Shown: positions 53,330 to 59,268 of the stretch, one piece after another
Position numbering within the stretch: the first letter of the stretch is position 1
Layout: each line of letters begins with the position of its first letter
Assembly (NCBI GenBank): GCA_903901875.1
Contig: CAIUSO010000151.1
Coordinates: forward strand, 1-64,000
From: an uncultured Geobacteraceae bacterium
GTDB taxonomy: Bacteria > Desulfobacterota > Desulfuromonadia > Geobacterales > Pseudopelobacteraceae
Length of the DNA stretch: 64,000 nucleotides
Direction of reading: 5' to 3'
Translations under genes and position numbers: made by a program
The notes under the pieces: generated by a model
Told to the model about the DNA's origin: nothing
The model's input: only the letters and a program-made list of their open reading frames with translations
Databases searched by the model: none

Positions 53330-54613
53330 ATGGGTAAAACAACAGCAGAAAAGATTTTCGATGCACATCTGGTCAACGAACCGTTTCCCGGCACCAAAGT
53401 ATTGCGTCTTGATGCAGTTCTCTGCCACGAAATCACCACGCCTATCGCCATCGATGACTTGATCCGGCGCGGCAAGGACCGGGTATTCGACCCGACCAAA
53501 ATCAAGGCGGTCATAGACCACGTCACTCCGAGCAAGGATACAAAAACGGCAACTCAGGCAAAGATTCTCCGTGACTGGGCCCGGCGCCACGACATTAAAG
53601 ACTTCTTTGATGTGGGGGCCAACGGTGTCTGTCATGCACTCTTTCCGGAGCGGGGCTTCATTCGCCCCGGATACACGGTTATCATGGGAGACTCCCATAC
53701 CTGTACCCATGGTGCCTTTGGTGCCTTTGCCGCCGGAATCGGTACAACCGACCTTGAAGTCGGTATCCTGAAAGGGGTCTGTGCTTTCCGCCAGCCGAAG
53801 ACCATCAAATTTAACGTCACCGGCACCCTCCCTGCGGGAGTCTATGCAAAAGACGTGATCCTGCATATAATCGGCAAAATCGGTGTCAATGGTGCCACCG
53901 ACAAGGTCATGGAATTCCACGGGCCGGTGGTTGACGCCATGTCAATGGAATCCCGTATGACCCTCTGTAATATGGCCATTGAAGCCGGCGGCACTTCCGG
54001 TATCTGCCAACCGGACATGACCACCGTTGACTACCTCTGGCCCTTTATTCAGGAGGAATTCACCGACACGTGTGCCGCCCTGGCCGACTATTCTCAGTGG
54101 CGTGCCGATGCCGATGCCGAGTACGATCAGGTCATCGAAATCGATGTGACGACCCTGGAACCGACCATCACCTTTGGCTACAAACCGGACCAGGTCAAAA
54201 CGATCTCCGAAATAGCCGGTGCCCGACTCGATCAGGTCTATATCGGCTCCTGCACCAACGGCCGACTGGAAGACATCCGCATAGCCGCACAGATCCTCAA
54301 GGGGCGCAAGCTTGCCCCCCACGTCCGTGGCATACTTTCACCGGCCACCCCCGCCATATTCAAGGATGCATCAAAAGAAGGGCTCATCGAGATATTCATG
54401 GAGGCCGGTTTCTGCGTCACCAACCCGACCTGTGGTGCCTGCCTGGGAATGAGTAACGGCGTGCTTGCCGATGGCGAAGTCTGCGCCTCCACAACCAACC
54501 GTAATTTCATGGGGCGAATGGGCAAAGGGGGCATGGTCCATCTGATGTCACCGGCGACTGCAGCCGCCAGTGCCATCGAAGGTGTCATCGCCGATCCAAG
54601 AAAGTATTTATAA
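53330..54613 (+). CDS. leuC: 3-isopropylmalate dehydratase large subunit
   Basis: A 427-residue aconitase-family protein of the short (archaeal-type) LeuC class. GDSHTCTHGAFGAFAAGIGTTD is the family motif. The [4Fe-4S] ligands are in IGSCTNGR and NPTCGACLG. Together with LeuD it isomerises 2- and 3-isopropylmalate; in Geobacter the same class may also serve the citramalate route to isoleucine. A possible -10 TATAAG lies about 40 bases upstream; no leader peptide was found. Confidence 0.93.
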   Translation: MGKTTAEKIFDAHLVNEPFPGTKVLRLDAVLCHEITTPIAIDDLIRRGKDRVFDPTKIKAVIDHVTPSKDTKTATQAKILRDWARRHDIKDFFDVGANGVCHALFPERGFIRPGYTVIMGDSHTCTHGAFGAFAAGIGTTDLEVGILKGVCAFRQPKTIKFNVTGTLPAGVYAKDVILHIIGKIGVNGATDKVMEFHGPVVDAMSMESRMTLCNMAIEAGGTSGICQPDMTTVDYLWPFIQEEFTDTCAALADYSQWRADADAEYDQVIEIDVTTLEPTITFGYKPDQVKTISEIAGARLDQVYIGSCTNGRLEDIRIAAQILKGRKLAPHVRGILSPATPAIFKDASKEGLIEIFMEAGFCVTNPTCGACLGMSNGVLADGEVCASTTNRNFMGRMGKGGMVHLMSPATAAASAIEGVIADPRKYL

Positions 54614-54629
54614 TAAAGGAGTTATCTAT

Positions 54630-55157
54630 ATGAAAACATTTGGAGGCCCGATCCTCTTTCTTGACCGAAGCGATATCAACACCGACGAGATTATCCCGGC
54701 CAAATACCTGACCGAGATAACCAAAGAGGATCTTAAACCGTATATTCTTGAAGACCTGAAACTCCCCGGCTTTGAGCCCAAGGGTGTTAAGACCGTCCAG
54801 GCCCGCGTTATCGTGTCCCGCGCCAACTTTGGCTGCGGTTCTTCACGGGAACACGCGCCGTGGGTATTTGAGGTAAACGGCATAACGGCGGTAATAGCAG
54901 CATCATTTGCCCGCATTTTCCGTCAGAACATGTTCAACTGCGGCATGGCTGCCATTGAACTCCCCCCGGCAGATCTGGAGCTGATTTTCAGCCACTCGGG
55001 AGACGATGATGCGGCCATGACCATCGACATTGAGGCACAAACGTTGACGGTGAGTGCGGCCGGGAAGCAGAAGACCATCTCCTTCGACATTTCACCCTTT
55101 GACAGGGCCCTGGTGATGGCAGGTGGGTGGGTCGACTACGCCGACCAGAAATACTGA
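54630..55157 (+). CDS. leuD: 3-isopropylmalate dehydratase small subunit
   Basis: A protein of about 175 residues, the swivelling domain of the dehydratase. SDINTDEIIPAKYLTE and ARVIVSRANFGCGSSREHAPWVFEVNGITAVIAASFARIFRQNMFNCGM are diagnostic. The ATG at 54630 follows AAAGGAG; the frame is open further upstream but would overlap leuC. It lies 16 bases after leuC and ends before a terminator. Confidence 0.95.
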   Translation: MKTFGGPILFLDRSDINTDEIIPAKYLTEITKEDLKPYILEDLKLPGFEPKGVKTVQARVIVSRANFGCGSSREHAPWVFEVNGITAVIAASFARIFRQNMFNCGMAAIELPPADLELIFSHSGDDDAAMTIDIEAQTLTVSAAGKQKTISFDISPFDRALVMAGGWVDYADQKY

Positions 55158-56645: not shown

Positions 56646-57950
56646 TTATGAATTCAGATACTCGCCAATTTTTTCAGCCAGGGTCCGGTAGACCCGTCGG
56701 CATTCATCCTCATCCTTCTCCAAGAGCGTCACCCTGAATCCTTGCAACGGGGTGGAAAACGACGAGAGCGGCACCACGCAGATTCCGGTTGATGCCAGGA
56801 TCTGGTAGACAAAGCGTTTGTCCGGTGAAACGCCCGGCTGGTTAATCAACCCGTCAACCAACTCCCTGACCTCATTATTTTCAATGCGGATTGATTGTCG
56901 ATTGTTCAGCAGTCCATCCCTGAAAGCGACCGCCATATAAAAAGCACCATTGGTCCGGTTTACCTGCAACGCCGGGACCTGACTGAGTGTGTCATAGGTA
57001 ATGTTGCTCATCCGCTCATAGCAGTTGATGCGCTGGGCCAGATAGGTAGCGTATTCAGGATGACGGACTATTTCGGGAATAACCGTCTGGGGCAGAGTGG
57101 TTGAGCAAACTTCGTTCATCTTTCCGGTCAGAATCAGATTGATATATTTCCGGAATCGCTCATCTTTTTGCCCGTTATAGACCTCTATCCAGCCACAGCG
57201 GGAACCGGGCCAGGGGAACTCTTTGGAGATACCTTTCAGTGAAATCGCGGGAACATCTCCGATAACATCACTGATCGGCACCGTACTCTCACCGTTATAC
57301 ACAATATTGATATACACTTCATCGGCAATGATAAACAGATCGTTTTCACGGGCTACGGCAACGATTTCTTCGAGAATTTCCCGGGTATAGACCATACCGG
57401 TCGGGTTATCAGGATTTATCAGCATTATGGCACAGATGTTCGGATTATACCGTACATGGTTCCGAAGATCCTCCATGTCCGGATACCAGTTCTGTTCCGG
57501 CCGAAGACAGAACAGAGAAGGTGCCGAATGGGCATGGCCAATCTCGCCAAGGGTATGGGTGGTATAGGACGGGGATGGCATCAGAACCCGTGTTTCGGGC
57601 CTGAGACAGCCATAAATCTTGGCTATGGCATCGCCCAGACCGTTAAAAAAGATGATGTCGTCAGCTGTTATCTGCGCTCCGCCCCGACCATTGGTTGTTT
57701 CACAGATGAATTCCCTCGTTTCGAGTACACCACGGGTATGACAATAGCCCCAGGTACGATTGTCCATGGCTGCCTTCGCCACAATTTCCTTCATCCACTC
57801 CGGAATTACCTCACCCTTGACAATGGGATCACCGATATTCTCCCAATTGATCTTGACGCCATGTTTCTGAAGTTTTTCCGCCACATTGACAATATTTCTG
57901 ATTTCATAGGTCAACTCGCCGGTGCCTGGTGGTACAAGTTCAATTCTCAT
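56646..57950 (-). CDS. Class I PLP-dependent aminotransferase, probably alanine-forming
   Basis: A 434-residue aminotransferase. IMLINPDNPTGMVYTREILEEIV, NDLFIIADEVYINIVYNG and SLKGISKEFPWPGSRCGWIEVYN (PLP Lys) are class I motifs. It belongs to the AlaA/AspC-like group, where members make alanine, aspartate or valine. The alanine-rich leader peptide and terminator just upstream (58060-58143 and 58001-58032) suggest that alanine is its end product; that is an inference. GAGGAGG precedes the ATG. Confidence 0.85.
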   Translation of the reverse strand: MRIELVPPGTGELTYEIRNIVNVAEKLQKHGVKINWENIGDPIVKGEVIPEWMKEIVAKAAMDNRTWGYCHTRGVLETREFICETTNGRGGAQITADDIIFFNGLGDAIAKIYGCLRPETRVLMPSPSYTTHTLGEIGHAHSAPSLFCLRPEQNWYPDMEDLRNHVRYNPNICAIMLINPDNPTGMVYTREILEEIVAVARENDLFIIADEVYINIVYNGESTVPISDVIGDVPAISLKGISKEFPWPGSRCGWIEVYNGQKDERFRKYINLILTGKMNEVCSTTLPQTVIPEIVRHPEYATYLAQRINCYERMSNITYDTLSQVPALQVNRTNGAFYMAVAFRDGLLNNRQSIRIENNEVRELVDGLINQPGVSPDKRFVYQILASTGICVVPLSSFSTPLQGFRVTLLEKDEDECRRVYRTLAEKIGEYLNS

Positions 57951-58000
57951 CTCTACTCCTCCTCACGATATACATACAATTCAATATCAGGGTCACAAAC

Positions 58001-58032
58001 GAAAAGGAGCCGTGGGCTTCTGCCCACGGCTC
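58001..58032 (-). terminator. Attenuator terminator before the aminotransferase gene
   Basis: Minus strand GAGCCGTGGGC-AGAA-GCCCACGGCTC (58032-58007), then CTTTTC (58006-58001). The 11-bp perfect stem lies 28 bases after the leader-peptide stop and 50 bases before the gene, so it would end transcription before the gene unless its formation is prevented. The leader segment GCCCGT (in the last codons) can pair with GTGGGC of the terminator, allowing two wobble pairs, as a weak antiterminator. Confidence 0.75.
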
Positions 58033-58059
58033 GCGATTATCTCCGGTACATAAGGACAA

Positions 58060-58143
58060 TCAGCAGGCAACGGGCATCGCTGCAGCACCAGGTGCCGCCG
58101 CAAGAAAAACTCGTGCTGCTATTGTCAGAGTAATCATATCCAT
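58060..58143 (-). CDS. Alanine-rich leader peptide (transcription attenuator)
   Basis: A short frame of 27 codons on the minus strand (ATG at 58143, or 58137). The later part reads AARVFLAAAPGAAAMPVAC before TGA; nine of the codons are Ala (GCA, GCG, GCT and GCC), in clusters of 2, 3 and 3, plus two Val. A terminator follows 28 bases after the stop. This is the layout of amino-acid biosynthetic attenuators such as the his, leu and ilv leaders. A possible promoter TTGACG-N17-TAGACA (58178-58150) would start the RNA next to the ATG, so the peptide may have almost no leader. Confidence 0.6.
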   Translation of the reverse strand: MDMITLTIAARVFLAAAPGAAAMPVAC

Positions 58144-58196
58144 AACGGCTGTCTATCACACCGAAGGAACAACGTCAACAGTTATTACACCACCAC

Positions 58197-58838
58197 TCAG
58201 CGTTGAAAACCAATAAGTAACCGACCATCCTCATCACGCCACCGAAGCCACCCCAACCGGGACGGCTCCACCATCACCATCACCCAGTCGTTTTCCCGTT
58301 TCAGCACCCTGAACTGCTGCCGTGGCTGCATGGTTCCGATGGAATCTCCATTCGGCATCGAGAGCAGCCGATAGTAGCGGGGTTGCAGTCCGGGCAACAG
58401 GCGACAGGGGTGTTGCTTCAAAAAAAGATCCCATGCCTGGTACTGACCCGCCTCCTCCGGCTTTACCCACCCTTCATGGCCGGCATCATCAAAGAGAATC
58501 CGAAACCACCCCCCCTTACGGGCAGTAACAATGAAGGGTGCCGACTTCTCCCCACTGCCGAAGAGCCACTCAACTCCGGAGACCGTGGCTCCGTTCAGCA
58601 CGCCAACCCGCAACAATCCCGGTTCCTCATATAACGGAAGCAACAAGGGTTCGTGCTCTGCCGGAATCAGGCCGACGAAGAAAAGCACCCCGATACCTGC
58701 ATAGGGACGCATGGGAGTGGCCGTCACGGCGGCACCCGCCGAAATGGCTACGCAGACGGTGAGAAGCAGTGACACCAGACAGAGACGAAAGGAGAGCACG
58801 TTAGTCAAAGAGTTTCCGAAGCCGCTCCAGATAGTCAT
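58197..58838 (-). CDS. Exported SH3-like domain protein, function unknown
   Basis: A protein of about 213 residues with an N-terminal hydrophobic segment (LSFRLCLVSLLLTVCVAISAGA) that looks like a signal peptide. Two SH3-like stretches follow: KGGWFRILFDDAGHEGWVKPEE and MQPRQQFRVLKRENDWVMVMVEPSRLGWLRW, of the kind found in cell-wall-associated proteins. The start at 58838 has AGG upstream and overlaps the cupin gene by 38 bases; the frame is open to 58922. No specific function can be given. Confidence 0.6.
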   Translation of the reverse strand: MTIWSGFGNSLTNVLSFRLCLVSLLLTVCVAISAGAAVTATPMRPYAGIGVLFFVGLIPAEHEPLLLPLYEEPGLLRVGVLNGATVSGVEWLFGSGEKSAPFIVTARKGGWFRILFDDAGHEGWVKPEEAGQYQAWDLFLKQHPCRLLPGLQPRYYRLLSMPNGDSIGTMQPRQQFRVLKRENDWVMVMVEPSRLGWLRWRDEDGRLLIGFQR

Positions 58839-59268
58839 GAACCTGCGGATCGCCCTCTTCGGGTGCCCAGGTCCCCTTTTCCTCCTCACGGAGCGGCAGG
58901 TAGGGGCCAGCCTTGGCTTCATAGAAGATGGTACCGGACTCCAGACTCAGGGCCGTATGGAATACACCGTGGGGAATATCGGCCGCCAGATTACCGCCGC
59001 CATGTGAAAGGAGCACCGTCTCGGCAACCTCACCGGCATCGGTAAAGATCACAATACCGAGCCGCCCCCCCATCAGGATAAATGCTTCGTCCTTCTCCGG
59101 GTCAAGGTGGCGGTGGGGTCTGATATATGAAGCCGGTTCTATGGCATTGAGCAGACGATGACATCGGGAGGAATCCGAGACATGGATATTAAAATTCTTC
59201 CGCTGCCTCGGATTCTGTTTCGCCTCCCCAACCACCTGCGCCAGCAGTTCTCGATTGACAATGTGCAT
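58801..59268 (-). CDS. WbuC-like cupin-fold metalloprotein
   Basis: A 155-residue cupin. The metal motif is SYIRPHRHLDPEKDEAFILMGGRLGIVIF with two His and a Glu, and the second motif is IPHGVFHTALSLESGTIFYEAKAGPY. The RHLDPEKDE string is typical of the WbuC family, often near polysaccharide or lipopolysaccharide genes. Its stop lies in the following exported-protein gene and its ATG directly follows the VOC gene stop. Confidence 0.8.
   Translation of the reverse strand: MHIVNRELLAQVVGEAKQNPRQRKNFNIHVSDSSRCHRLLNAIEPASYIRPHRHLDPEKDEAFILMGGRLGIVIFTDAGEVAETVLLSHGGGNLAADIPHGVFHTALSLESGTIFYEAKAGPYLPLREEEKGTWAPEEGDPQVHDYLERLRKLFD

Follow-up and report, generated by a model that had tools for sequence, protein, structure and literature searches.

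A candidate alanine-sensing transcription attenuator before an aminotransferase gene in the Desulfuromonadia

Results

The locus

The window is the whole stretch of DNA analysed here, 64,000 nucleotides from an uncultured Geobacteraceae bacterium. The features under study are given below; A1 denotes an alignment of the window with 41 window-type leaders.

58150..58178, minus strand: predicted promoter, with -35 box TTGACG (58178-58173), 17-nt spacer and extended -10 element TG-A-TAGACA (58158-58150), from the sequence
58143-58060, minus strand: leader ORF MDMITLTIAARVFLAAAPGAAAMPVAC, 27 codons, nine of them Ala, from the ORF translation
58093..58119, minus strand: early Ala codons, GCA GCA (58119-58114) and GCG GCG GCA (58101-58093), from A1 and a ribosome-position model
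58113-58111, minus strand: Arg codon CGA, flanked by the early Ala codons and invariant in A1
58082..58098, minus strand: hairpin P1, formed of Ala codons (58098-58093 with 58087-58082), a possible pause hairpin
58021..58076, minus strand: predicted antiterminator, UGCCCGU (58076-58070) with the terminator 5' arm GUGGGCA (58027-58021), from folding energy and arm swapping
58061-58055 with 58041-58035, minus strand: spacer hairpin inside the antiterminator
58001..58032, minus strand: predicted intrinsic terminator, 11-bp stem (58032-58007) and tail CTTTTC (58006-58001)
57964-57956, minus strand: Shine-Dalgarno sequence GAGGAGGAG of the aminotransferase, from the sequence
56646-57950, minus strand: aminotransferase, class I/II PLP, PRK06855 family, AlaA-like, 434 aa, from profile matches

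A preliminary description had reported a minus-strand leader frame with nine Ala codons, a perfect 11-bp GC-rich terminator ending in CTTTTC and, 50 bases beyond it, a class I aminotransferase with a strong Shine-Dalgarno sequence. All of these are confirmed. Nine of the 11 stem pairs are G-C, the loop is of 4, and the aminotransferase ATG (57950) lies 56 nt from the stem and 50 nt from the tail, which as a T-tract is weak. The protein matches PF00155 and NCBIfam PRK06855 (739.6 bits; cut-off 443).

The exact terminator palindrome occurs once in the 4.3-Mb genome and is therefore not an exact dispersed repeat; with this one exact copy, a dispersed-repeat origin was ruled out. A known RNA family, amino acid leaders and the T-box included, was likewise rejected, as Rfam gave no gathering-level match in the window and, in 12 related loci searched at E <= 1, nothing that overlaps the leader. 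A generic sigma-70 scan of the window did not list the leader promoter. Upstream of the leader lies an SH3-domain gene (58197-58922), and near the aminotransferase, on the opposite strand (53330-55157, plus strand), are two frames resembling the large and small subunits of 3-isopropylmalate dehydratase, which we take to be leuC and leuD.

The best solved relatives of the aminotransferase by sequence are 1xi9, a 'putative transaminase' (E 1.3e-41), and AlaA, 4cvq (E 2.5e-39). No alanine dehydrogenase was found above the family cut-off in the window's genome, which is 99.8% complete. The same genome holds five other aminotransferase matches, all distant, three of which are PRK06836, PRK07550 and LL-diaminopimelate aminotransferase. 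Judged from these sequences, the PRK06855 enzyme probably makes alanine from pyruvate, and it may plausibly have the main part in alanine synthesis. In each of the genomes G035 and G002 the aminotransferase gene is present twice, in full-length copies; identity to the window's enzyme is 92-93% and 88-89%.

The leader among close orthologues

The window's order is presumably Geobacterales and its class Desulfuromonadia. The close set comprised the 80 best orthologue loci, from relatives that include Geobacter, Geomonas, Oryzomonas and Trichlorobacter. According to the preliminary description, a conserved Ala-rich short frame and a terminator should recur in the spacers before orthologous genes. 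They do so in 50 of the 80, and in other families of the class as well; the arrangement is absent from 29 loci, and one (L005) is unreadable. The 50 leaders are 41 of the window type, seven of a rebuilt Geomonas/Geomesophilobacter type, one cut by the end of its contig (L063) and one at L064; Oryzomonas, like Geomonas, is among the genera that carry the leader. When the 77 upstream regions from orthologues with 420 nt upstream were tested for an Ala-rich frame plus terminator, 44 passed, as compared to 0 of 385 shuffles; none of the 29 regions scored as lacking the leader passed (0/29). The frame in the close set typically reads ..AARAI(S/T)AAARNAAGLPAAR.

The seven rebuilt leaders (L070, L071, L075, L076, L078, L080 and L081, from Geomonas, Geomesophilobacter and kin) form a second alignment, A2. 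They have no CGA motif, and their Ala run, of four or five consecutive residues, stands close to the end of the frame (SAAAAKP*). Their hairpin is GCAGCAGCGGC/GCCGCCACTGCTG, and the position of the terminator is unchanged.

At L064 the leader lies 1.1 kb upstream, with a 316-aa frame (L064:1019-2258) between it and the aminotransferase; the attenuator would there control both. The loci without a leader (L002, L004 and 27 others) include many close relatives of the window, and in several of these relatives the aminotransferase directly follows an apparent SH3-domain gene.

Start and translation of the leader

Counted from the start of TTGAC, the distance to the leader ATG is 35-39 nt in every one of the 41 window-type promoters that are readable (37 nt in 23 of them). 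Given this nearly constant distance from the -35 box, the transcript should start at or near the ATG, and the window-type leader is probably leaderless. TTGAC is also found upstream of the seven A2 leaders. The distance from the ATG to the CGA codon, used as an anchor, takes the values 27, 30, 33, 36, 39 and 42 nt and is in frame in all rows, including L061, for which the anchor was set one base off. This conservation suggests that the leader frame is translated.

The composition of the leaders points to the same frame. The 41 window-type leaders average 10.2 Ala in frame versus 0.5 and 1.5 in the other two frames, and 4.2 in dinucleotide shuffles. Ala accounts for 37% and 32% of leader residues, 37% being the value for the 41 window-type leaders, and all four Ala codons are used. 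These composition counts, as well as the ribosome-position counts below, omit L047, whose contig starts inside the promoter, and L167, in which no ATG start was found; the seven Geomonas-type leaders were left out of the composition, arm-swap and ribosome-position counts. In the class beyond the window's order, an SD-like motif precedes 29 of 39 leaders, as against the apparently leaderless start within the order, with the caveat that this count uses the farthest in-frame ATG and may misjudge starts.

All 42 rows of A1 have CGA as the Arg codon within the Ala run, and so do 40 of 40 class leaders, where CGAGC itself served to place the frame; Arg codons at other positions vary. A search for a sequence with which CGAGC could pair gave no clear result (unpaired probability about 0.4). 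Is the invariant CGA a slow codon, or is it an RNA motif?

Terminator and antiterminator

The terminator covaries strongly, with 7 of 10 pairs changed on both sides, and the Ala-codon hairpin P1 is conserved and little varied. The covariation score of P1 and terminator together was reached by 0 of 500 shuffles, and their pair-type count by 38 of 500.

The weak antiterminator of the preliminary description, GCCCGT with GTGGGC, is present, only not as a stand-alone helix: it forms part of a longer one, in which UGCCCGU and the following bases near the leader stop are predicted to pair with the terminator arm around the spacer hairpin. The folding energy of this structure averages -19.1 over the 42 window-type leaders versus -13.5 in shuffles, the lowest of 60 shuffled set means being -14.4. 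The window has an energy of -22.4 kcal/mol, and 0 of 60 shuffles are as low. The mean z is -2.3 for the 42 and -3.3 for a set of seven; three of the 42 (L034, L037 and L046) show no gain over shuffles. Arm pairing alone gives a set mean of 0.70 versus 0.58 in shuffles, whose highest set mean is 0.63; this fraction-paired measure is too blunt for single sequences because a GC-rich arm pairs with almost anything.

Arm swapping bears on whether the two strands fit one another. With relatedness uncontrolled, own arms beat swapped arms over all 82 leaders (0/2000) and within the 40 class leaders (0/2000); within the 42 window-type leaders they are no better than swapped ones (674/2000). For the antiterminator, column covariation within A1 does not reach significance (54/500), which a register shift in some clades might explain. 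One leader, L165, carries a private double change in the antiterminator, GAAGCUC with GAGCUUC. Support for the predicted structure comes from folding energy and arm swapping, not from column covariation among the closest relatives.

Modelled ribosome positions

In the ribosome-position model, the leading edge was placed 13 nt past the start of the A-site codon, and early Ala codons were those at least 11 codons before the stop. Modelled capture of the terminator arm is 0.72 with the ribosome at early Ala codons versus 0.18 at the stop in 41 window-type leaders, and 0.80 versus 0.14 in 39 class leaders. Capture is higher at early Ala codons in 80 of 80 leaders (41/41 and 39/39), by at least 0.2 in 75. 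For the window, modelled capture is 0.74-0.75 with the ribosome at any of the first five Ala codons and drops to 0.13 when it stands at the stop.

Ribosome-free RNA modelled from the ATG shows a mean capture of 0.60 in the 41 leaders and 0.74 in the 39. In the model such untranslated RNA is thus mostly antiterminated, and for most leaders the model predicts that loss of translation should raise expression. The window is intermediate at 0.36, and the model yields no clear prediction for it.

The leader in the class and phylum

A covariance model, R1, which contains the Ala codons, was applied with a match threshold of E <= 1e-5. It matches 129 of 277 class genomes, and the aminotransferase gene is present in 251 of the 277 (E <= 1e-100). 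There are 47 matches outside the window's order, of which 40 were retrieved and examined. In 39 of these the aminotransferase, 52-65% identical, is the next gene downstream, and in the remaining one the contig ends first; the gene is likewise next downstream at 33 of 33 loci within the order (L117-L149). All 40 leaders from outside the order have a frame with at least seven Ala through the anchor (AAA in 36), and all have a terminator, mostly of the GGCCATGG type. L167 belongs to this group, with an Ala-rich frame lacking an ATG start.

Because R1 contains Ala codons, 30 model-negative class genomes with the gene were also checked; these were hand-picked, mostly from the more complete ones. 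An Ala-rich frame (at least six Ala, or AAA) was found in 24 of the 30, and a frame together with a terminator in 21, as compared to 1 of 150 shuffles of the same regions. The six orthologues without a leader all belong to one family (f10), a seventh genome of which has one.

In a sample of the phylum, R1 matched 12 of 297 genomes at the same threshold, eight of them within the class. The four matches outside it (E 4e-7 to 6e-6) do not adjoin the aminotransferase gene, nor do eight further weak matches (L196, L197 and L199-L204), and a phylum-wide spread was rejected. A protein search of the phylum gave 20 loci (L244-L263): 12 were scanned by script and by eye, two (L244 and L245) were read, and those lacking an identified gene start were left out (L246, L261, L262, L263, L252 and L255, the last two being class genomes G234 and G232, already counted). 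Among the 14 loci judged, only L257 shows a leader-like frame and terminator.

Discussion

A proposed mechanism

Comparison across genomes indicates that the leader frame, its Ala codons, the promoter position, the terminator, the antiterminator and the link to the gene are conserved, and the attenuator reading of the preliminary description appears well supported by it. The element is most likely a ribosome-mediated transcription attenuator that reads Ala-tRNA supply before an aminotransferase, and the cell probably switches the enzyme on only when alanine is short. Stalling, the Ala-tRNA signal and the product of the enzyme are what we infer.

The proposed sequence of events would be as follows. 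RNA polymerase would start at or beside the leader ATG, and a ribosome would load immediately. With ample Ala-tRNA, this ribosome would reach the stop codon and cover the antiterminator strand; with this strand covered, the terminator would form and transcription would end. With Ala-tRNA in short supply, it would stall at the early Ala codons, the terminator's 5' arm would be captured by UGCCCGU together with the following bases, and transcription would continue into the aminotransferase gene. A more elaborate proposal is advanced tentatively, as one that may well prove wrong in some part: a class-wide Ala-tRNA sensor governing alanine synthesis, in which the Ala run would serve as both sensor and pause hairpin, translation of the leader would, in the window's order, begin with the transcript's first nucleotides, and the invariant CGA would meter the ribosome as a second element.

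Alternative explanations

The leader may also be a ribosome-controlled attenuator that responds to a signal other than Ala-tRNA charging, such as nascent-peptide arrest, the CGA codon or the general speed of translation. The invariance of CGA among variable Arg codons speaks for such a signal, bearing in mind that CGAGC was required for placement of the class leaders. Arrest peptides usually keep specific residues, whereas the residues around the Ala run vary here. Further, of the CGA motif and the Ala run, only the latter is present in the Geomonas-type leaders, and leaders too diverged for R1 retain Ala-rich frames, in a set filtered for Ala and controlled by shuffles. A non-Ala signal is accordingly considered unlikely.

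That the conserved element is RNA only, acting either as the upstream gene's terminator or as a constitutive 5' element, with the frame a by-product of a GC-rich hairpin, is very improbable. P1 does itself consist of GCN repeats, and the RNA is kept at L055, where the frame is lost after the Ala run, and at L072, where there is an early stop. Against a by-product, each of the six leader lengths preserves the frame, which opens with an ATG at a set position relative to the promoter, Ala is retained in the rebuilt leaders, and start signals that differ between the order and the class (leaderless versus SD-like in 29/39) serve a similar frame. A peptide acting in trans as a small protein, with attenuation secondary, seems extremely improbable: the N-terminal part of the leader is poorly conserved and the leaders diverge strongly across families. 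There is precedent for such a role in the S. meliloti trp leader peptide, which is reported to act in trans (PMC7298713).

Relation to known attenuators

The E. coli trp, his, leu, thr, ilv and phe attenuators have a leader rich in the regulated amino acid and alternative antiterminator and terminator structures. The leader described here shares both traits, with Ala as the amino acid. In the E. coli trp scheme, a lack of leader translation lets a 1:2 helix form, which sets the terminator arm free; unlike this, most of the leaders modelled here show no arm-freeing helix in the untranslated state. The probable leaderless start in the window's order also sets the leader apart from the E. coli attenuators. 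Leaderless attenuator leaders do exist in Actinobacteria and in rhizobial trpL, and these share an ORF start at the 5' end of the transcript, in other lineages and for other amino acids. To our knowledge, alanine does not figure among the amino acids usually named as subject to leader-peptide attenuation.

The preliminary description had considered an Ala-sensing leader unusual. This holds for Ala leaders before biosynthetic genes, of which full-text literature searches showed none, and has to be qualified by one precedent from the same searches: AlaL, before alaS in S. lividans, with 22 aa and six Ala, is listed as an Ala-dependent attenuator and called new by its authors in PMC8079986, where a leaderless leuA-type leader is also mentioned. 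As described there, AlaL is likewise a short Ala-rich leader, but it precedes an alanyl-tRNA synthetase in an actinobacterium, whereas the leader here is spread over a class, precedes a probable biosynthetic aminotransferase of the PRK06855 family and has a predicted terminator and antiterminator. Another candidate for ribosome-mediated attenuation that came from sequence comparison is uORFC-8-2 of the Rhodobacterales (PMC8632094), in which codons of one amino acid are clustered; it differs in being a Cys leader before a tRNA synthetase gene, cysS. Word finds in the main texts of PMC8632094, PMC2965389 and PMC2864571 did not include 'Geobacter'. As far as these literature searches go, an Ala leader before a probable biosynthetic gene is new.

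An Ala sensor conserved over the class to which the electricity-making Geobacter group belongs would be a directly testable regulator of alanine synthesis, and the leader constitutes an RNA family without an Rfam match.

History of the leader

A quick protein tree with 140 rows requires 15 changes of leader state, 7 of them forced by starred branches; shuffled states on the same tree average 35 changes, and 0 of 500 are as low as 15. The tree leaves out L005, L158, L169, L183, L205 and L206, as well as ten class loci for which the gene start was missed (L159, L160, L164, L165, L168, L172, L177, L184, L189 and L191). The pattern is read as that of an ancient trait with repeated losses, notably near the genus to which the window belongs. 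It offers a natural series in which a similar leader seems to shift from a Shine-Dalgarno start to leaderless translation and to have been lost several times. Outside the class, the orthologue at L257 is preceded by an Ala-containing frame and a GGCCATGG terminator, for which a transfer of the gene together with its leader is possible.
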